A stretch of DNA of 64,000 nucleotides from the NCBI RefSeq assembly GCF_964204645.1, contig NC_134025.1, forward strand, positions 23,528,001 through 23,592,000, given 5' to 3'. The position numbers and the translations under genes are program-made. Under the pieces are notes generated by a model. That model saw only the letters and a list, made by a program, of their open reading frames with translations. It was not told the DNA's origin and did not search any database. Shown here in pieces: positions 1,739-48,884 of the stretch; the first letter of the stretch is position 1, and each line of letters opens with the position of its first letter. Source of the DNA: Tubulanus polymorphus. Taxonomy: Eukaryota; Nemertea; Palaeonemertea; Tubulaniformes; Tubulanidae.

Positions 1739-3499
1739 ATAAACCATTTTACAGTTGCTAGCCGCCATTTTGTTAGGGTACTTTTGTCCTGTATTGTTGG
1801 GTCGTTTTTTTCTCTTTTTAAAAACTATCCGTGATGTGTGTTGTATCATATTTCATCTGTCCATGGATGGATTTTGACAGTTTCAGCAACATTCAAACCG
1901 CATAAATCTCTAGTTTTCAGTTATGTAAGAATCATTTTTCAAATTTGAAACAATGCGACTTGAGAGCGATATAAAAATTGGCGGTCAGTTTTTTCCGTGC
2001 GCATAGAAATCAAGGGTACTGAACTTTGAAGTTCGTTATTTTCAGAAATAATTTTCTAAAAAATCCAAGCATTTCAAGAACTGTGCGCATAAATGCCCTC
2101 TTTCAGGTGAACTTTGAAATGTTAAGATATCTTGCCTAGTTTTTTCCCTATGGCACTTAACCTGCAGCGCATGTATTGTCATTCCGAGATTCGGCGCTGT
2201 TTTCTTTGCGTGTATTTCAGTATATGGGTGTTATTTTTTTCATTTTTGATACACTTGTCTCTACGGAAAATGGTTTTAATTGTTGGTACGAGTATCAGGT
2301 TTAAATATTACGGCATTAATACTGTATTCCGTTCTCCGGCGCTAGTTCGTAATGGCTGTATTGGTAGCCGCTTTTACAGCAGGCAGAGGCTTACGTACAT
2401 GCACCCAAGAAAACCCAAAATATCACTCTTTTGTTGTAAATGCAATCCACACACTTCTTGCGTTTTTGTGATGGTAGATGTCACGTTTTACTTTTAATCA
2501 CCTGTGTCTGACATTAGGACTTGATACTTGATATTTCACCACCAAAGCAAGAAAATGTTTTCCTATATTTTCTTCCCGAGCAAATCAATCTTGTGTGTAC
2601 TTAATAGAAAGTATTCATAGAAAGTAGCTGAATATTTGCCCCACCCCATTTGTCCAGCTTTTTGACCACTTCTCCATCCATCTAATTTAAGTAGATTTTT
2701 ATGTAAATTAATTGATAGACTACTGATTTAAATGGTCATCATACTCGATTTTGAGTGTTATATTTCTTTTCTTCTTTCATCTCAATATAGGCCTATATGT
2801 TCTCTTCCCGCGCGCAACTTCGAATACGTGATCAAAATGCCGCTCAGTCTCACTGCTAAAACTGGTCAAAAAAATCCCTTAAACTCCAACATCTCAAATG
2901 TCTTCGATCTATTATTGCATAAATGACGTAATATTAAAACCTGATACTCGTACCAACAATTAAAACCATTTTCCGTAGAAACAAGTGTAGTAAAAATGAA
3001 AAATAACACCCATATACTGAAATACACGCAAAGAAAACAGCGCCCAATCTCGGAATGACAATACACGCGCTGCAGTTAAAGAGCCATAGGGAAAAAACTA
3101 GGCAAGATATCTTGAAATTTCAAAGTTCACCTGAAAGGAGGCATTTATGCGCACAGTTCTTGAAATGTTTGGATTTTTTAGAAAATTATTTCTGAAAATA
3201 ACGAACTTCAAAGTTCAGTACCCTTGACTTCTATGCGCACGGAAAAAACTGACCGCCAATTTTTATATCGCTCTCATGTCGCATTGTTGCAAATTTAAAA
3301 AATGATTTTTACATAACTGAAAACTAGAGATTTATGCGGTTTGAATGTTGCTGAAACTGTCAAAATCCATCCATGGACAGATGAAATATGATACAACACA
3401 CATCACGGATAGTTTTTAAAAAAGAGAAAAAATGACCCAACAATACGGGACAAAAGTACCCTAACAAAATGGCGGCTAGCAACTGTAAAATGGTTTATT
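1739..3499. repeat. Large inverted repeat (foldback element)
   Basis: Bases 1739-2318 and 2921-3499 are reverse complements of each other, with scattered mismatches and small indels. The matching landmarks run in order from the outside in: 'aataaaccattttacag', 'gctagccgccattttgttag', 'ccatccatggac', 'gtgcgcataaatgcc', 'ttgcctagttttttccctat', 'ggttttaattgttggtac'. The 600-bp spacer is not repeated. This is either a foldback transposon or two copies of one element inserted head to head. The short ORFs in the arms mirror each other only because the DNA is duplicated, and they are not genes. Confidence 0.9.
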
Positions 3500-3885
3500 A
3501 TTCTGAAAATTAAAATGTATGATAACTTAAGCAAATTTACTATATGTCTATAATTTCTATTTGACAAAAATCTACTGAACAGCATGACTAATGCTGAAAA
3601 ACATGTTCGAAATATCTTTGTTTTGGGGATCAGATAAGATACAATTTTGCTTGGAACACTTTTCTGTACTAAATGGTATAGAAAATCCTAATTGCATAAA
3701 GTCTTTCTTATTGTCATTTTGTAATAAAAGAGTTGAATATTATTGTGGTATTATGAATGAAATTATTCAGCAATTTGTCCCATCCGAATCAAACAATCAA
3801 TGAATTGAACATAAAAACTATCGATCAATTTTATTCACTTCAGTTAAATTGTCATACTATCTAAACAAATGGCTTTTCATTCCAG

Positions 3886-6800
3886 GACTACTTTAACTGG
3901 AAAGATGATACAAATCGTAATTTCATATTACCACCGATCGCATCAGACAAACAGCCTGAAATCGGCGATTCCGCTGGGAACAGTCACTCGAATCGCGGTA
4001 GCTACGAAACAAAGTTGATAATTCCAAAAACATTTATCACGAGGAAGGGTGCATTGCTTTTGTTTTCGGAAGATCTGGCAAAAACCTTTGAAGAAGAAGA
4101 GGATGGCCGAGAAGAAGGCGGAGGAGGAAAAGATATGGCTCTCACAGATGAGCTTGATCTCAGAACAGTAGGAGATTTGGCAAACAGTATTTTAGCTTAC
4201 GGAAGTCGGGTATGTAATATTCCACTCCATTATTAAGTAACTTGTTTCTTTATTATGTCCACTACTAAAGCTCGATAATCTAGCATAGTACAGGCTAAGA
4301 TTTAGATTCATCCAATAGTTTTTTGTTCTCAGAAACCAGATGAAGCAGTTTGTCTCAAAGTCATTCCGCAACGAGATAGTCGTTCACTGAAGATAATCCG
4401 GCCTGGATTCTCACCTCGGCGTTACCTAGCTAGCTGGACAAAGTTCTTTGATACGAACTTCGTTGCCAGGCTGTCTACAAAAGGTATTTATCACTAAGTG
4501 TTGTCAATCGACTGCATCTTGATATCAGGATGTAAATTTTTACAAGATTTTTTCTTGCTTGAATTGGACCTACTAAAAGAGTTAATCAGTTTTCTCTCAT
4601 TGATGAAAACTTTATAGAAATTGTAATTGGTACTATATTCATTTGTTTCCTTCACATGCAGGTTATCTCCACGAGAAAAATCTATACGAAAGCAATCAGT
4701 TTCTTCCACATATTCGCTACCCGGTTAACGTCGACCTGTCAAACTACCCGATGCCATACCGTATAATGAAGCAAATGCTCATGTCACCAGGAAGTCTATC
4801 TGGATATACATTTTATTGGTCTTTCCTCAATGGGAATAAAGGTAGTGTTATAACTATGCAGGATAACGTGAATAACGTGTTTGGAGCAACGTCTCAGACG
4901 TTTTATTGAGTTTATACACCAGGATTGGTTGAATTTTACTCCAGAGTTTAATTAGTTAATGCTTTAACCTAGCATGTCTGCTTTATTCTACATGCTAGAT
5001 GTCCATAAGGCACCCCTTTCATACTTATGTCTATTTTCTTACAATCGATCGACGACCATAAAACTCAACAGTGTGAAACTGTTCCCATGGATGTGTGTAT
5101 TGTCCATGGACGTTACCTCCTCTATGGCCCGCTGTTGTTTCCTGACCAATAAACACTACGGAACAATGAAGTTGAATTCTCCCTGGGGGATGATGGGAAA
5201 TGAAAAGCAACTGCAGTGATATCGATCAACGTTTAGGCGTTGTGAAACAATACGTGGTTGTTTAGTAGAAGTAAATGTTCAATTGGAGTGAGTCAGGCAT
5301 GGAAACGAGAAAGACAATATCTATTAATTTCCAATATGGTGTTCACTGGTGCAGTATGTCAATGAGACCCATAGTTACGGAAGGCCGCATCTGAACTTGA
5401 TTAATGTTTTCCTTCATCCACATTCACACTAACATTTAAAGGTTTACAACATTTTACTTATAATCTTTATCATAAGTAATTAATACATATTCAACCATTT
5501 AACAAATTGCCTCAATTGCCATATTGAATTAAGGCCGAAGATTTGTTTAAAAATGTTCTGGATATCATTATTGCCTACCAGTCTACATCATCATACTGGA
5601 GTGTTGTCGGTTGTTTCATGAAGTTTCATCAATTTGAAAGCTCAAATGAAATATAAACAGCAATCCATAAAAGAGAACATTAAAATTCAGCTTCAATAAA
5701 GAAATCAATTTGCAACGACTCGATCCATTAGCACTATGTGGAAAATGCATTTATCTGCCGAAAAATCATATTCAACTTGAGATATTAAAAAATATCATGC
5801 AGGTAATTCATCATTCCTGCATCAGCAATGATCAGTTCATGAGTAGAACTTCTGTCAGTCTGAATGTAGAAGTACTAAGATAGATCGAAAAATCTGAATG
5901 ACGCATCAAAACTAGTCGTTGTCAAAATCATACTTCCATTTTGCCTGAAATTCCAATGTGGAGAACGGTTTATTAAGTAAAGTGTATACATATACAAATT
6001 TTATTTATATTTCAAATATGATATTCTAATATAGATTCTTATTTGTTTGTTTATAGATGATGTTGACCATTCGGTTCCATCAGATTCTAGTTCTGATACC
6101 TCGGGTAAAACTCAATGGTTCAATTCTTTTGTGTATTTTTACCTCGCCATTGCTGGGCATCTGTGCAAATGCCTCCTCGATTCTTAACCTTCAATGCCAG
6201 GTCTTCGCAAATGCTCCTCTCTAGACGTATAATTTTCTTCAACAATCTAATTGTGGTTTTTTGAGCTATATAGATCTTTTTTTGGAGCAGGATATAGATG
6301 AGTCAAATGCCTTTTCTTTATTAAGATTTTCTCATTATAGTCGTGCCATATTTTCTCATATGAAGAATTTATGAAATTAATGATGACATTTTTTTGCTTT
6401 TGTTCAGGACACCAATAACAGGTTGTTGATATTTTTCCTAAGTAATGGCTTTTTTGAAAACACTCCTGATTCATCCGTGTGTCATACCATCATGTTGTTA
6501 TGCATGTACTTTTCAACTTTTACTAACTGAATTGAATAAGCTGCCTATCCTAATAAGCATATCAAGTTGAAATCACTGTTATTCTTATTTTATGACTAAT
6601 TTAATCTTATTAACTGTCACCTAATCGGGAGACTTAAATACGTAATAGGTTTTGACTAAATTTTAGACCCGCGTTATGAATAGAGTTTTAGTTGTTTGGT
6701 GAACTCCGTCGCAAGGTGACTACATATTAAGACGGTATAAAACTTCTTGGTCAACCTTTGTTGGTCGAGAAATTCTTTTCTAAATCAGCTGCCATGCAAG

Positions 6801-16400: not shown

Positions 16401-19400
16401 GCTTCATACAGGGTGCAGTGTCCAGAGTAGAGCATTCATTTGCATGCAAGATGTCTGATTAACAGATGATGTTCCCTATCAATTTTAGTTATGATTGCAT
16501 TCAAAAAGGCAGACTGGCGGCCATTTGACTTTTGAAAACCACTTTCCTATCCTACAGCATAGGCCTACAGTACTTGAATTATGTTCACATTCATAAAATT
16601 GGGGTTTGTTACAAAAGTAACAATCCCCATTTCAGTTGTATTTGCATGCAAGATGGCTACCAAGATTACGGGTTTCGCACTGAAGTTTGCAGTGTGCTCG
16701 GTCGGCTGCAGGTAATTTTCGCATGCGATCTGTTGCATGCGAAAATCACACCAATCAAAAATATTTGATATCTCCGCAGCGAATTTATCACTGCGAATAT
16801 ATTCCCATAGTATATCTGTGAGATGCAATTTTCCCTGCAAACCATACAAAATATAGCTAATCCTTGATGAACTCTATTTTCTAGACGTGGCTTATGGTAG
16901 GTCTAATTGTTTAGCACAACTGGAACTTGGTTTTTAAGAGGCTACAGAAACTAGTTTGTTCAACAAAAATTTACACAATGATCTTAAAGATAGTATGTCT
17001 GATGACAACTCCTCTCCTGCTATGAATACTCCGCCATTTTGGTTGGTTTGGAGAGTAAACCACTGTCAAATTATTTTCCTGATTAACCTAACCAAGGCTA
17101 GAACAAATGAGCAAACCGATTTGCTCGATTTTAGACGTATTTACAGCAAAAATTGTATAGTGTGTCCATCGCTTAAGGGTTAAAACCTAGTCTTCTTTAT
17201 GATCTAGAATAAAGCATAATCTTTTCCACCTTTCCACATCATTAAACTGCTTTTTACCCGTATAACAATGAAAATGTGATATCTAGAAAATTAGATTTTC
17301 ATATCGAAATAGTAACATTTAGATATATTTATCCACTAGATCGATTTGGAAACCTTACTGAGGAAGAACTACTGTTGCGACTTCGTGAACATGCAGCAAA
17401 AATTGCTGCTCGAGTCCTGCGACGATTTGGTGCTGGAAAAGATCTTGCAAAAGATGCTATGGTGAGTTGAAAGGATTCTACTGATTTGTAAATATCATAT
17501 ATGTTTGAAGTGAAGAGTATCGTGAGTACTCTAACAAGAGAGGAGATGCCTAACTTAATTTAATTTTGGATTGCAAGACTTTTGTAAAAATATTCTAATA
17601 TAAGAAATATCATTATGGTAGTGTCTCCTATTTTCAAAAATACTGCCTTTACTAAAATGAAGACATAGCCAACCTAAACTATACTTACAAAACAGAAGAT
17701 TATAGAACTTATTTTGTGAAAGCCACATCTAAAGTACATGTTTATTCCGGGTAAGAAAGTGCATTGTGCAACTAATGTTTTGTTTTGCACTGCTGGACTA
17801 TACACAATGGCATGCAAATTTTGAGCGTGAACTATCTTAACATGTTTGTTTTGTGTGCTTCTTTAAAACTCTCATCAATTGATGACAGACGGCAGCAACA
17901 ATTTGGCAACGACCACCAGATGCGGATACAGCTAGCAAAGCAGCAGATAGTGAGGATGATGATGACGATGTAAGGCGGTCATTGTTATATTATTCACAAG
18001 ATATATTTGGCAACGCATTTCCTTTTTTTATTCCAGACTAACCTTTTTCTAAATGTCATATTCGACTAATATCCATCAAATTGTATTAATAGTGCATTGA
18101 AGAAAATTGAGTAAACATATTTGAAATATGGTATATTTTTGATGGTTATTTTTTATCACAAATTGTTTCCCTGCACTCGCTTTAGCTGTATACATATATA
18201 AGAAGAATATCGTTGTATATGCTAACAATGTTGATATCTTAAATCTAATTTACACAACTGCAAGGTGCACTGCAAATGAGGTAAATGAGGTGGCAATGAG
18301 GTAAACTGGCACTTTATTCCTATTAATGGCTTATCACATAGAATACCAGAAATCAAGATGCTTCACCTATAAAATGATTAACGTTCACAGTTACCATTCT
18401 ATATCATTTAGATTTATTTGCTTATATTGCTTTGAATGCTACAGTATTCCAGGCTAGAGTTACCGGTAGTTCTTTTTTAGAATTAGACTCGAAATAGAAG
18501 CGTTATTGAGGAAATGAGATCAAAATATTACGTCATTTTTGTTCTGGTTTACAGTTTTAATGGATTTTTGGGGAGTCATTGTATTTTTACTGCATGTATT
18601 TTACTGACTGTACCGATTGTATTTATATTTGGTGATACAGGTACATGAATATGTCTTTTCTAACTAGGTATGTTAGAATGATTATTCTTTAGGTTAAAGG
18701 ATGAAAGCTATACATTTAAATTGGTGTAAAAAGCTCTGACCAGCAAAATATGTTCGACTTAGAAAAAAGGCTAAGATTACCTCAGATTTAGGGTCATTTA
18801 CTGAATATGAATTCCTTCTAGGAGAAAACTAATCAGGCAGCTTCATGGCTCTGTCAATCCTTTGAAAATTCTTAACATTTTCTCAGGTCTGAGTTATTGT
18901 TCTGTTTGCTTGCAACAATAAATCAACATCGTGGCTGACTTTTAATGATTTTACTGTCTTTTTGGGATCACATATTTGTCCGACTAAGACGATATATCCG
19001 ATTATTAAATCTGGTACACGGACCGATTTTTATAGAAAAATTAACTGGACAATTCCAGATTGGAGAAATTCCTTCCAATTAGACTGATTTCCCAACTAAC
19101 AGTAATTTGACATACGCAAGTTTTACTGTATAAACTCATTGCAATCCATAGGCCTTACATTTACAAATTCTGTTTTTTCTAGCTCATTCTGAAAGAATTG
19201 ATGAAAGCAAATGGATTGACTGATTTGGATCCTCAGAGTGCTTTGTATAAAGAACTACTGCGACAAGCATTAGGAAAAGCATGTATGTGTTCTACATTTT
19301 TGTGTGTAAAAAGGGAGGTTGTGTGGTATTCAAAACAGTATTATTAATATTTCATTTTCAATTTCAGTGAATATTGATATTCCGGAGGATGCAATTATAT

Positions 19401-22400
19401 CTGATGATCTATTGGCTGCACTAGCAAGTGGTCAACTGAATCCAGATGATATTGAAATTGTATTTGACCCTAAAACTGGAAAGCATATTGTCAGACTGAA
19501 AAAACTTACAGCTGAAAGACTTCGACAAATGCCAGTCGAGGCACAGGCAAGAATTTTGGCCAGCTTATCACTGGAAGAACGAGCTCGTTTGTTAGCATCT
19601 ATGACTGATGAAGAGAAAAAGAAACTTTTAGCCAGTTTAGGTATGGAAGAAAAGGCAAAATTATTAGCAGCCATGTCTATGGAAGAACGAGAGAAATATC
19701 TGGCTATGATGACTGAGGAAGAAAAAGCAGCTTTATTGAGAATGTTACCACCGGAGGAACGAGCTAGATTAGTGGCAGCATTAACAGATGAAGAACGCGA
19801 AAAATACTTAGCAACTCTGACAGATGAGGAAAAAGCTCAACTATTGTTATCCGTTTCACTAGAGGATCGTGCCAAGATTCTTGCCTCTATGTCTGCTGAG
19901 GATAAGGAAAAGTTATTGGCCATGTTGAGTACAGAGGACAAGGCCAAACTTATTGCAGCTATGAGCATGGAGGAGAGAGAAGCTATACTTGCAAATATGA
20001 CATTAGAAGAAAAAGAAGCACTGCTTGCTGCTTTAGCACCAGAAGAGAAAGCCCGTTTGATAGCTGCTTTATCAGAAGAGGAAAGGCAACAAATTCTGAA
20101 AAATATGTCGCTCGAGGAGAAGGCTGCAATTCTATCTTCTCTGTCATTAAAGGAGCGAATGAAAGTTTTGAATTCTTTATCTGAGGAAGATAAGCAAAGA
20201 CTATTAAATGAATTACCACCTGATCAAAAGGCTAAGATATTGGCAGCGCTCTCAGAAGAAGAGCGTGAAAAATTCCTTGCTAATCTATCACTAGAAGAAA
20301 AAGCAGAACTACTGCGAGCCCTTTCACCTGAATCAAAAGCTAAACTTTTGGCATCCATGTCAAGTGAGGAGAGGGCTAAATTGTTGGCAGAGATGTCTGT
20401 TGAAGAGAAAGCGAAATTACTCCAAAATCTTTCAGCCGAAGAAAAAGCAAAACTTCTTGCATCAATGTCTGTTGAGGAGCGAGCTAAAGTTTTAGCAAGT
20501 ATGTCGGAAGAAGAAAGAATGAAACTTTTGGATTCATTACCACCTGAGGAAAGAGCTAAGATAATTGCTGCTCTATCAAAGGAAGAACGAGAAAAATTGC
20601 TGGCTAATATGTCTGAAGAAGAAAAAATGGCACTTCTTGATATGTTGTCAACAGAGGAGAAAGGAAAGATTCTTGCTGCAATGTCAACAGAGGAGCGAGC
20701 AAAATTCCTGTCAAATATGACTTTGGAGGAGAAAATGAAAATGCTTGATTCACTTGGTATAGAAGAAAGGGCCAAACTTTTAGAAGCAATGACAGCTGAA
20801 GAAAAAATGGCATTACTTAATAGCTTGCCTCCGGAGGCAAAGGCTAAAATCTTGGCTGCATTATCTAGTCAAGAACGTGCTAACATTTTGGCCAATATGA
20901 CTTTTGAGGAAAAACTAGCAATGTTAGAGGCTCTACCACCTGAGGAAAGAGCGAGAATTTTAGCATCCCTATCAAAAGAAGAACGTGAAAGACTCATTGC
21001 CTTGTTACCTGAAGAGGAGAGGGCTGAAACACTGAGGGCATTGAAATCATTCCTGAAAGCAGAAAAAGAGCGCAGCAAACTAGAGAAAAGACCTGAATTT
21101 GTTGTTGGTTAGTGTCAGTTTATAACATTCATTTCATGTTTATATTGCTTTTATAGCATCATTTCTAAAGCAGTACGGTTTTTGATTTTTCTATCTTAGG
21201 AAAACCAAAGGATTCAGATGAGCTTGCTAGACTGTATGGGCGATATGATGGTAAGGCATATTAATCTGCAAAATATATACATTTCTGTATAAATCATTTG
21301 ATTTTGCGGTGATGATCTGTTGTGACTTGATACTATCAACTTACTCTGAAATGAACTGAAAATTAAACTAAAAGATTTGCTGTTTATTATATTATAATGA
21401 CAAATGTGGAAGTATTGGTACATCTAACATGCGTGCAGTGTTTTTGCTATCAAATAAAGAATGAAGTCAAGGGTTTTTATGACATTTAAAGTGTTTTAAC
21501 ACTGTCTATTTATGATTCATTCATTACAGACCAAAATATCACTAAATCATCTGTTAAGAAAACTGCGTCCGTCCCTATAAAAAGTGCCGCACCTGCAAAG
21601 GCACCCCCTCCATCACCAGAGCAGTCAAATTTGTCCTTCGTCAGTGTTGAGAAAAAGGCTTCCGTTGATGAGGGCAACACTGAAGTAAACGTACCTCAAG
21701 TTAGCTCTTCATCAGGGCCACCACCTCCAGGTGGAGGCAAACCTAACAAGGATGTGCACATGTCATTAACACTGCCAAAATTAAAGGCCCCTTCTAAACG
21801 TAAAGAAGGTCCTAAGAAAAAAGAAGTCCATTCAAAAGAATCTGGCCAGTCTAAAGCCAAAAAACCTAAGCTACCAAAAGTTACAAAAGACAAGGTGGTG
21901 CTTACTAAAGTGAATGCAGAGCCACTAGAATCAGAGTCCGAGACTCCTGCAGAGGATGAAATCAACATTGAGGAGCGTGAGCTGACTCCGCCAGAGGTTG
22001 CAGAGATTGAGGATGAACCACTGGCTCCTCTGCCTATACAAGATAATAATCTCTTACAACCGCAACCCCATGATGAAGGTGTGAAATTTATATATTCTTC
22101 CACTTCCCTACCCCTCTATTATATAGCATTTTCACTCTATACATTATTTCTAACTACACAAGTTCATTGCTTAAGCGATATTTTTTTGGGTAAAATCTGT
22201 TCTATTTTACTCTAATTCTTTCACTCTAATCTAAATTTCTCACTTATTACCAAGTTTCTCACTTATTTAAAGTAAGTACATGTATAAACTTTGTTATGCA
22301 CATTATCATGTTATACTAAATGTATGTATATTTTTGCCTATTCAAAGCTTTATTCCGATTGATAAAGTAGCATAAGAGATTCTGAATCAATATCAGATTT

Positions 22401-23812
22401 CGAATTGGAACTAATTTTATCATTTCTTTTTTCTTTTCATTTATTTTCACATTCTCAGGACGACGTGAGTCTAGTGTAAGTACTAAAGAAATCATTAATG
22501 ATTATTAGATGATAAACGAAGTTCAAAATTTGAACGAAAAGAAATTTATATTTGAACAGGATACTACAACAAGTAGTCTTCGTGCTGCACAGAGAGCGGC
22601 TGTAGCCGAAAAACGTAAACGTGAAGTCGAACAAAAACGACGTGAACGGGAAGCGGCAAAGAAAAAAGAACAAGAAGAAGAAGAACGCCGAGAACGTTTG
22701 AAAGCAGATCTCGAGGAAGAACGAAGAGAGCGAGAGGAAAAAGTCAGGTAGAACTGAACATCTGGTTCCATGGAAAATTCACTCCTTGTTACATTACCTG
22801 AATAATAGATGTCCATTTTGAATGATTTCAATTTTTCAGACTTCAACGTGAAAAATCGAAACGAGACCGAGAACTACAAAAGCTGACCGAAGAGCAGCGT
22901 TTGAAACGAATTCGTGAGAAGGCCGACAAAGAAAGACGAATGAGGGAGGAAGAGAAGAAACGTATGGAAGATTTCAAACGTGACAGAGCCAATGATGAAA
23001 AACATAAACAAGGTGAATATCACTATGCCACATTAGTGTTTCAAAATATGGGTATGGTAAAAAAAATCATTATGCTTGTGGTGGCCGTCCCCAGTAGCTG
23101 TTGAACATTATTTTGATCCGCTATCAAGGGAAATCGTCTTCAATTTTTAAGAAATATTGAGGCCTTTTCTGTTGAAATAAGCATCTACCCTCATAAACTA
23201 TAACTGACTGACTGTTAAAAACCGAATGGCATATCAAGACATTTTTATAGAGATACCAGGAGGAATTACCATTTCCCATTCATCACTTGTAGCATTGATG
23301 CAACAGAAGCATGAAGCTGAAAGACGAAGACAACTAGAAGAAGAACGAATGCTGTACGAAATGAGCGAACGCGAGCGTATGGAATATGAGCGTAAAAAGA
23401 AGGAAGAAGCAGAACGCAAAGCTCGAGAAGAAGCAGAAGCAAAGTATGTGATTTATTTGTTCGTTGATTCATTCCATTATTTTCATTGCCTATTTCCTTT
23501 AAGATCTATGAAAATGAATTTTCTTTATTCAGAATATACGCATGTGCTTGTTGATCAAATAAGAGGAATGTTTAATTTTTCAGGGCAAGACGCGAAGCTG
23601 AAATTGCTAAAGCTATGGAAGAGGCTCGTCAATTGGCAGAAGAGATGGCGCGTCGTAAGAGAGAACTAGAAGAACGTATGAACTTTAATCGTAGTTTACA
23701 TGTGGAAGCAGAAGGATTGACTGTTACACAAGATGTATCTCGGTCTTTTGTGTCATCTTATTTTGATTTGCTGCAGTGGTTAGGAGTAGATTTACCAAAA
23801 GAAGGATTCTAA
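3886..23812 (+). CDS. KIAA2012: KIAA2012 homologue, 27 exons, 5'-incomplete
   Basis: Exons: 3886-4209, 4333-4483, 4662-4841, 6057-6104, 7682-7923, 8296-8421, 11804-11969, 12051-12305, 13223-13357, 13444-13599, 13708-13827, 13964-13999, 14279-14329, 14780-14881, 15040-15066, 15578-15682, 17340-17461, 17889-17969, 19183-19282, 19368-21107, 21200-21250, 21530-22078, 22459-22475, 22560-22747, 22840-23012, 23293-23443, 23584-23812. Phases agree throughout and the total, 5625 nt, is divisible by three (1874 residues). The N-terminal block (DYFNWK, IPKTFITRKGALLLFSEDL, LRTVGDLANSILAYG) and the C-terminal block (charged coiled coil, then VSRSFVSSYFDLL) match what I recall of human KIAA2012, which is shorter at about 1180 residues. 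The middle is basic and Ser-rich, then a 12-residue repeat array, then a Pro/Lys-rich linker. The initiator exon is missing. The function of the family is unknown. An alternative reading is two genes, split between 8421 and 11309. Confidence 0.88.
7427..7476. repeat. (TA)n microsatellite
   Basis: About 25 uninterrupted TA units lie in the intron before exon 7682-7923 of the KIAA2012 homologue. Length polymorphism between individuals is to be expected. Confidence 0.97.
8422..11308 (+). other. Large intron of the KIAA2012 homologue
   Basis: I see no exon that fits the flanking phases. The stretch holds an imperfect hairpin at about 9505-9565 around 'tcaaaaatacata' and a few ORFs of 50-150 codons with no splice context or recognisable content. 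One short ORF with two ATGs starts at 10689 and encodes an acidic 53-residue peptide (MMDDDNLDSTTIAYPSK...). It is not supported by anything else. The 3' end of this interval would hold the promoter of the alternative exon at 11309. Confidence 0.5.
11309..11575 (+). CDS. KIAA2012: Alternative first coding exon of the KIAA2012 homologue
   Basis: The exon runs from an ATG at 11309, with an in-frame TAA only four codons upstream, to a donor after 11575. Its 89 codons end in phase 0. The next exon (11804) also starts in phase 0, as does the junction after 8421, so the long transcript can skip this exon and a shorter one can begin here. The peptide opens with three 8-residue repeats (MSSSDIAN, MSSSKVTN, MSTSDLAN), then a basic stretch (YKKRKHRRIK) and an aromatic, Arg-rich segment. 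I infer an internal promoter upstream. The other possibility is that this is the start of a separate gene and exons 3886-8421 belong to another transcript ending soon after 8421. Confidence 0.6.
16060..16680. repeat. Diverged tandem repeat around 'gattggcagccat'
   Basis: Five or so degenerate copies of a unit of roughly 110-150 bp follow one another. Each has a form of 'aagatggcngattggcagccat' followed by 'ttcgattctnatcctgtt...cctacag'. Clear copies begin near 16063, 16245, 16360 and 16505, with a weaker one near 16650. It lies in the intron between exons 15578-15682 and 17340-17461 and has no coding potential. Confidence 0.65.
17970..19182 (+). other. Intron before the repeat exons, little content
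   Basis: The intron separates exon 17889-17969 from 19183-19282. Near 18265-18305 there is a short imperfect repeat of 'gaggtaaatgaggt'. Otherwise it is AT-rich sequence with stops in every frame. Confidence 0.6.
19368..21107 (+). repeat. KIAA2012: Exon encoding about 42 copies of a 12-residue helical repeat
   Basis: After a non-repeated lead (NIDIPEDAIISDDLLAALAS, then a PDDIEIVFDPKTG segment), the frame encodes about 42 consecutive units of exactly 12 residues, from PVEAQARILASL to PEEERAETLRAL. The consensus is S/T-x-E-E-R/K-x-K-L-L-A-x-M/L, with a Pro-Pro variant of the first two positions. S/T-x-E-E is a typical helix N-cap, and positions 8, 9 and 12 are hydrophobic, so each unit should be a short amphipathic helix plus a tight turn. 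The pattern resembles the short-helix superhelix of the MgtE N-terminal domain (inference from the motif only). Codons differ between units, so this is an old protein repeat and not slippage DNA. No intron interrupts the array. Ser/Leu-rich frames on the other strand are shadows of it. Confidence 0.93.
22560..23812 (+). other. KIAA2012: C-terminal charged coiled-coil block of the KIAA2012 homologue
   Basis: The last four exons encode about 245 residues. Most are Glu/Arg/Lys arrays (EKRKREVEQKRREREAA and similar) that would form a long single helix or coiled coil, the region I recall as Pfam DUF4670. It ends in a conserved tail with LHVEAEGLTVTQDVSRSFV and SSYFDLLQWLG. The tail, not the low-complexity helix, identifies the family. 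The acceptor of exon 23293 was chosen over the AG at 23309 because only it keeps the frame after the phase-1 donor at 23012. Confidence 0.85.
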
Positions 23813-47645: not shown

Positions 47646-48884
47646 CGCCGTAGTAGAATTCCCACTCTCAGTGTCATAAACTTTCATTAAAACAACTAGT
47701 CTTCAACACCTTTAAGATGCGTCAAGGTGGTCCACGTCTTCGTTTTCATCGATATTCGTTGTGTATTCTTTCATTTCCCGTGATTTCCCGGTGCGGAGAT
47801 AATAGAGCGCAGCGTTTATCAGCGTGAGCGTCGAAGAACAAAAAAATTGAAAACATTATCACGAAATACCAACAGCATTACTCACTTCCCTATGGGTCAA
47901 TTCAATTCAATTCATACTTTATTGCTAAATAATTGAAATACAACATATCGGATTAAGACAAAAATGATATAACATAGAACAAACTATGGAGAGACAAAAA
48001 CTATTTACAATATGACAAAGAAGTGCCATCTTCTCAGTTTCACAATGAACCGGGGTCATGACGAGGTTTTGAAAAAATTTTGAAATCAAATCTAATTTTT
48101 TTGTATAAAGCATGCACCCGTATGCATCTATAGTAGTCTAGTGAAAAAATTTTTTAAATATTTTTATCCAAACTCGAGAAAAGCCTGTGGCAACGGCCCT
48201 AGCAACGAGATTGGTGCTGTTTCTCTCAATTTTCATACTATCGTTTTTCTGACTATATCCGGATCGTTCCAGAGTAAATAAGAATTACTTTTCCAGAAAT
48301 ATCCGACGTGGACTCCCAATGAATATAAGAAAACAGTTTTGTTTCGACCGTTAAGCTCTCATGACATTTATTGGGCTTTCATCACTCTGCTCCTCTTCAA
48401 GTGGCCCCTCTGACGGACCATGATCCTGCGCCATTACACTTTGGACACCAGGAAAACACTGTCATGTCATCGGGATAGTTTCAACTGTTTCGAAATTTGC
48501 TCATTTCATACGTTGGAAAAGACTGTCATGTCATCGGGATAGTTTCAACTGTTTCGAAATTTGCTCATTTCATACGTTATGTATGGATGTCAACACGCGC
48601 GACTAACAACATAGGACTACGATAACATTTCTTACAGAAGAAAAAACTACGATAGATTTTCTGACTTTTTACACATGAAAAACGACAAAAATGGCGAAAA
48701 AGCCTGTAATATCTTAACTCATTATCATAGCTGTTTCCAAATTATCGATAGGAATAGGGCCAGTCCTTGCTGGTCTTGGTTGGATTGGAAGATCATTTAT
48801 ACGAAGAGGAACCGAATTGTACATTAATATTTTTTGCTACCTAAACTGGGCAGAATATTGCAGAGAAAAATATGCCACGAGGAC
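47646..48884. other. Intergenic region between the divergent CNK and sulfotransferase genes
   Basis: It should contain the CNK promoter and 5' UTR (minus strand, left part) and the upstream control region of sulfotransferase A (right part). It holds the 64-bp tandem duplication at 48451-48578. No ORF in it is convincing. Confidence 0.6.
48451..48578. repeat. Two-copy 64-bp tandem repeat
   Basis: Copies at 48451-48514 and 48515-48578 both run 'ggaaaa.actgtcatgtcat' to 'gctcatttcatacgtt' and differ by about one base, so the duplication is recent. It lies about 430 bp upstream of the TATA-like box of sulfotransferase A. Confidence 0.95.

Follow-up and report, generated by a model that had tools for sequence, protein, structure and literature searches.

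Gene structure around the repeat array

The window, that is, the whole stretch of 64,000 nucleotides analysed, contains on its forward strand a KIAA2012-like gene in which one exon encodes a long array of 12-residue units (Table 1). Eight exons from 19183 to 23812 were joined through canonical splice sites with matching phases, giving one frame of 1074 residues with a stop codon at its end. The array exon is flanked by the acceptor AATTTCAG immediately before 19368 and the donor GTTAGT immediately after 21107, with phase 1 at both ends. For the Pro/Lys/Glu-rich exon, the donor at 22080 was preferred, as the frame is preserved with it; an alternative donor at 22078, two bases earlier, misfits the next acceptor. 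No Pfam match was obtained for this exon or for the upstream frame at 3865–4236, and a sequence search of the PDB with the N-terminal and pre-array regions gave no relatives. We take the upstream frame to resemble the N-terminus of human KIAA2012.

The last four exons matched DUF4670 (PF15709), which is presumably the KIAA2012 family model, with 27.5 bits over model positions 334–520 of 521, a score barely above the cut-off of 27. Reversed and locally shuffled versions gave nothing at E 1, and the match was the only one found across the 268-Mb genome. The DUF4670 exons are charged in sequence and probably form a coiled coil.

Table 1. Features of the KIAA2012-like gene and its repeat array (positions in the window)
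Feature	Position	Strand	Basis or remark
ORF with first recognisable upstream exon of the KIAA2012-like gene	3865..4236	+	Open frame; exact exon ends not fixed
Exon immediately 5′ of the array exon	19183..19282	+	Ends in phase 1; AG/GT and phase join in frame
Array exon	19368..21107	+	1740 nt, phase 1-1
N-terminal cap: short helix and predicted beta-hairpin ahead of the array	19368..19504	+	AlphaFold2 H12-19, E28-33, E38-43
43 in-register 12-residue units, MgtE_N-type helical repeats	19505..21052	+	Frame, profile, AlphaFold2 model
Super-repeat 1, 8 units	19640..19927	+	Period-8 analysis
Super-repeat 2, 8 units	19928..20215	+	Period-8 analysis
Super-repeat 3, 9 units (one extra)	20216..20539	+	Period-8 analysis
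Super-repeat 4, 8 units	20540..20827	+	Period-8 analysis
Super-repeat 5, 6 units	20828..21043	+	Period-8 analysis
C-terminal cap: final part of a longer helix (model residues 548-572) plus disordered tail	21053..21107	+	AlphaFold2 model
Exon after the array exon, 51 nt	21200..21250	+	Splice sites, phase
Pro/Lys/Glu-rich exon, likely disordered linker	21530..22080	+	Splice sites, phase
DUF4670 exon 1	22560..22747	+	DUF4670 profile match, frame
DUF4670 exon 2	22840..23012	+	DUF4670 profile match, frame
DUF4670 exon 3	23251..23443	+	DUF4670 profile match, frame
Last exon, stop codon at end	23584..23812	+	Splice sites, phase

From 19505 to 21052, the frame encodes 43 contiguous 12-residue units, with no insertion or deletion; when counting starts at the helix cap, the exon holds 42 full units. 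The consensus of the unit is [S/T/P]-x-E-E-[K/R]-A-K-[L/I]-L-A-[S/A/N]-[L/M], in which one Glu is conserved in 39 of the 43 units and the main core position is Leu, Ile or Val in all 43. Acidic residues number 106 and basic residues 82 among the 516 of the array. The mean pairwise identity between units was 44% for the protein and 51% for the DNA, and Tandem Repeats Finder reported only 1.8 copies of a 108-nt unit because the DNA of the array is so diverged. The preliminary description had placed here a 1740-nt exon of about 42 units, free of insertions and deletions, with a 12-residue consensus and diverged codons, and had joined it to a KIAA2012 homologue. Its exon bounds proved exact, with AG and GT at the flanks; the unit count, the consensus and the divergence, with synonymous codons randomised between units, were all borne out, and the splice sites would link the array exon in frame to the DUF4670-type exons.

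The 1740 nt of the array exon are a multiple of three and both of its ends have the same phase, so that skipping the exon would preserve the frame, and its optional inclusion is possible. Just 5′ of the first recognisable exon lies a fold-back element. Its 501-nt arms (1738–2238 and 2999–3499) form an inverted repeat of 96% complementarity around a 760-nt spacer, and there is a second, inner pair at 2223–2320/2919–3016. At 48451–48578, the window also carries a 64-bp tandem duplication, which is probably recent because its copies are 98% alike.

The array matches the MgtE_N family

When the whole array exon was scanned against Pfam, MgtE_N (PF03448) was matched with 242.7 bits (E=4.4e-73), compared with a curated cut-off of 25.9 bits. 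Considering that long repeats inflate summed profile scores, three disjoint nine-unit (108-residue) pieces were scanned separately. They scored 69.7, 58.4, and 55.5 bits, respectively (E of 3.5e-19, 1.1e-15, and 8.8e-15), and each alignment spanned the greater part of the 102 profile positions. No MgtE_N match was obtained with any of five controls (sequence fully shuffled, sequence reversed, columns consistently permuted in two ways, and units shuffled internally), the column-permuted ones keeping the composition and the period of the array. The array is not a product of chance, as all MgtE_N matches vanish in the shuffled and column-permuted versions. All six MgtE_N matches obtained on the array in the genome scan shared a single register relative to the 12-residue unit. 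When the array was searched with phmmer against all PDB chains, MgtE came first (2oux, E 1.1e-6), and a profile of nine-unit array blocks found only MgtE among all PDB chains.

The gene encodes neither an MgtE transporter nor a FliG protein. The NCBIfam mgtE model, which would denote an MgtE transporter, reached 79.3 bits against a cut-off of 232.75, its best stretch spanning only positions 39–120 of 450, and no CBS or MgtE membrane domain was matched in the exons scanned. The FliG profile gave 41 bits on the whole exon and 29.5 in one piece, in short local matches on the repeat, without the ordered N, M, and C domains of that protein. No ARM family was among the best 25 matches listed for the array exon. 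The Pfam matches to WHIM1, KaiA, PRANC, TFIIE, and PUF were short and local and were set aside, as was the NCBIfam EntB exception model, whose score was far below its cut-off.

A search of the genome for other arrays of the MgtE_N kind found none. The frame at C11:4138047 (L014, frame 1447–1833) was just over the MgtE_N cut-off, but it was set aside as a low-complexity frame with a near-perfect 12-residue minisatellite of the LREFLHSLPVDS type, and it is probably not a related domain. The 1029-residue frame at C3:987265 (L006:35–3124, minus strand), which carries zinc-finger-like motifs besides a long repeat of the CAPEAQAAPA type, was rejected as a similar array, its repeat being of proline and alanine. 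The array had no match in the phage and viral collections searched. One pattern scan of bacterial genomes returned at least two Acidimicrobiia loci; the one locus read (L016) was rejected, as its protein has a short stretch resembling MgtE_N but lacks a long array. The literature searched contained no paper on an animal MgtE_N array or on the structure of KIAA2012.

Predicted fold and origin of the repeat

AlphaFold2 was run on the array exon alone and on a piece of 21 units, aligned with the 17 units before it. The former yielded about 42 helices of 9–10 residues, one per unit, with a mean pLDDT of 80.9 and a pTM of 0.48, the latter value suggesting that the overall curvature and handedness of the full-length model are not fixed. 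The 21-unit piece yielded 21 helices with a pLDDT of 87.6 and a pTM of 0.74. In a structural comparison of this piece, the best eight rows were all MgtE N domains (Z 9.4–11.8, rmsd 2.7–3.8 over 99–124 residues), although the tool's own note warns that a Z below about 13 may reflect no more than a common arrangement, and helical repeats reach middling Z values easily. The next row, ARMC8, had a Z of 7.2, and FliG, PUF, and armadillo proteins came after it. Various parts of the array aligned to the same MgtE domain, as would be expected of a continuous stack of such units. The Foldseek TM-scores of the array model against the PDB were low, probably owing to differences in curvature among long solenoids, and a viral fold library returned generic repeat proteins only.

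The preliminary description had envisaged one N-capped short helix per unit and a superhelix of about 500 residues. Both ideas gain support from the models, which predict a helix of 9–10 residues at every unit within a continuous helical superstructure. Its further claim of a new structural module does not hold: the Pfam search with the exon and the nine-unit pieces returned a known family, and both the sequence and the predicted fold of the unit match the MgtE_N helical repeat. The best reading of the models is that the array would be a very long MgtE_N-type alpha-solenoid, built of a repeat that is already known in kind.

The origin of this likeness is a separate matter, and both answers are compatible with such a solenoid. 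Helix-turn units amplified inside the gene may have converged on the MgtE_N pattern, as the unit is short and simple and could arise twice, the genome is without a second MgtE_N domain of comparable quality, and a pure consensus repeat alone reaches E=3.5e-10. However, the real pieces score far better than this consensus (3.5e-19), the period-matched permutations fail to score, and the top structural group consists of MgtE domains. These last points do not separate deep descent from convergence, and we consider the two near even.

Age of the array and its eight-unit order

At positions where two units share the same amino acid, the same codon was used in 38.0% of cases, compared with 37.5% expected from codon usage. 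No clear excess was observed between neighbouring units or at any of the lags examined (1 to 24), and therefore no recent duplication occurred within the array. As the synonymous codons are saturated between units, the array is judged to be old and not freshly inserted; by the same codon evidence it is not homogenised, and its protein pattern and exact unit length have been maintained by selection. Tandem arrays often expand fast, and a symmetrical exon (phase 1-1) has the form of an insertable or skippable cassette, both of which would suit a recent lineage-specific insertion or expansion. Given that the synonymous codons of neighbours are no more alike than expected, such an event is very unlikely, and the earlier wording of an inserted array is unlikely to be right if a recent event was meant.

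Unit similarity was raised at lags 3, 5, and 8, with z values of 4.4 at lag 3, 3.7 at lag 8, and only 1.6 at lag 5. When one extra unit was allowed, the best period was eight units (96 residues), which scored 6.62, compared with a mean of 5.73 (sd 0.10, maximum 6.05) in 300 shuffles; identity between units in the same slot was 54% versus 44%. The array comprises about five blocks of 96 residues, a block length near that of the MgtE_N model. This order may reflect duplication of an eight-unit block, a superhelix that turns once in about 2.67 helices, or the two together.

Proposed structure and role

We consider it likely that the array is a single continuous alpha-solenoid of about 43 MgtE_N/FliG ARM-like helices, which would act as a rigid scaffold of a KIAA2012-type protein in motile cilia. 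Each 12-residue unit would form one N-capped helix, 9–10 residues long, with Leu/Ile/Met and Ala in the core and Glu and Lys/Arg on the surface. The helices would stack as a superhelix in which equivalent positions return every eight units, placed between the N-terminal region and the DUF4670 coiled-coil C-terminus. Such a solenoid would most likely give the protein a stiff framework of fixed length in motile cilia, with a long solvent face open to partners.

The abundance of Glu, Lys, and Arg (106 acidic and 82 basic of 516) and the adjoining charged, probably coiled-coil DUF4670 exons might instead point to one long alpha-helix or a coiled coil, in which case the array would be a charged E/K-rich rod resembling the protein's own C-terminal part. 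This is very unlikely, as an S/T/P helix cap recurs every 12 residues, which is incompatible with a heptad, the helix was broken at every unit in both AlphaFold2 runs, and the array matches MgtE_N and not coiled-coil families. That the array lies outside the KIAA2012-like gene, as a separate gene or an unspliced frame, is hardly tenable: its long exon could be a stand-alone frame, but AG and GT sites with matching phases flank it on both sides and eight exons run in frame to the stop.

For the solenoid, a scaffold or spacer of defined length would be the most economical role because there is no catalytic signature, the charged surface is regular, and the C-terminus is coiled-coil-like. In one antibody study, motile ciliated cells of five tissues showed staining for human KIAA2012 in the cilium; no function of the protein is known (PMC12772120). 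By analogy with this human relative, the protein encoded here may also be located at the cilium. A bolder extension, which we hold to be improbable, is that a solenoid of 8/3 symmetry (eight helices per three turns, five blocks) serves as a length-defining ruler or rail of the axoneme, an ancient animal scaffold built from a repeat common to bacterial flagellar rings and magnesium channels.

Bacterial MgtE_N repeats are known in the form of a compact domain some 100–125 residues long, whereas here the repeat would extend over about 516 residues in an animal gene, about four to five times the length of the MgtE N domain of bacterial magnesium channels. If the fold holds, it would provide the first structural hypothesis for KIAA2012-type proteins. 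As a naturally regular solenoid of equal helices with an eight-unit order, the array would also suit the study of superhelix geometry.

Comparison with known systems

The gene resembles KIAA2012 (DUF4670, PF15709) in its C-terminal exons, which match model positions 334 to 520 of 521, and differs from it in the array exon, which had no match to the DUF4670 model among the matches listed. With the MgtE N domain (PF03448; PDB 2YVY, 2OUX, 8GPV), the array shares the register of short helices every 12 residues and a near-full-length profile match, and this domain is the top structural neighbour of the array model. The MgtE N domain is superhelical according to the literature, and the array is predicted to be a superhelix too. 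However, MgtE has one such domain (about 100–125 residues aligned), followed by CBS and membrane domains, whereas the array runs unbroken for about 516 residues, with no CBS or membrane part in the exons scanned.

FlgY is classed as MgtE_N and is related to MgtE and FliG (PMC11870540, PMC13023049). The FliG middle and ARM-like domains, and the MgtE_N heads of FlgY and FlbB in bacterial flagellar E-rings, belong to the same class of ARM-like short-helix superhelices as the predicted array. In those systems, rings are built from four-helix heads or from separate small domains, whereas the array would be a single long intramolecular stack; for FliG, the sequence match is also weaker, as given by the bit scores above.

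Compared with the armadillo, HEAT, and PUF alpha-solenoids, the predicted fold aligns over about 240–300 residues, and the similarity at every third unit of the array recalls three-helix layers. ARM repeats have about 42 residues and PUF repeats about 36, whereas every repeat of the array would be one 12-residue helix, and the structural Z of these solenoids to the 21-unit piece is 7.2 or lower.
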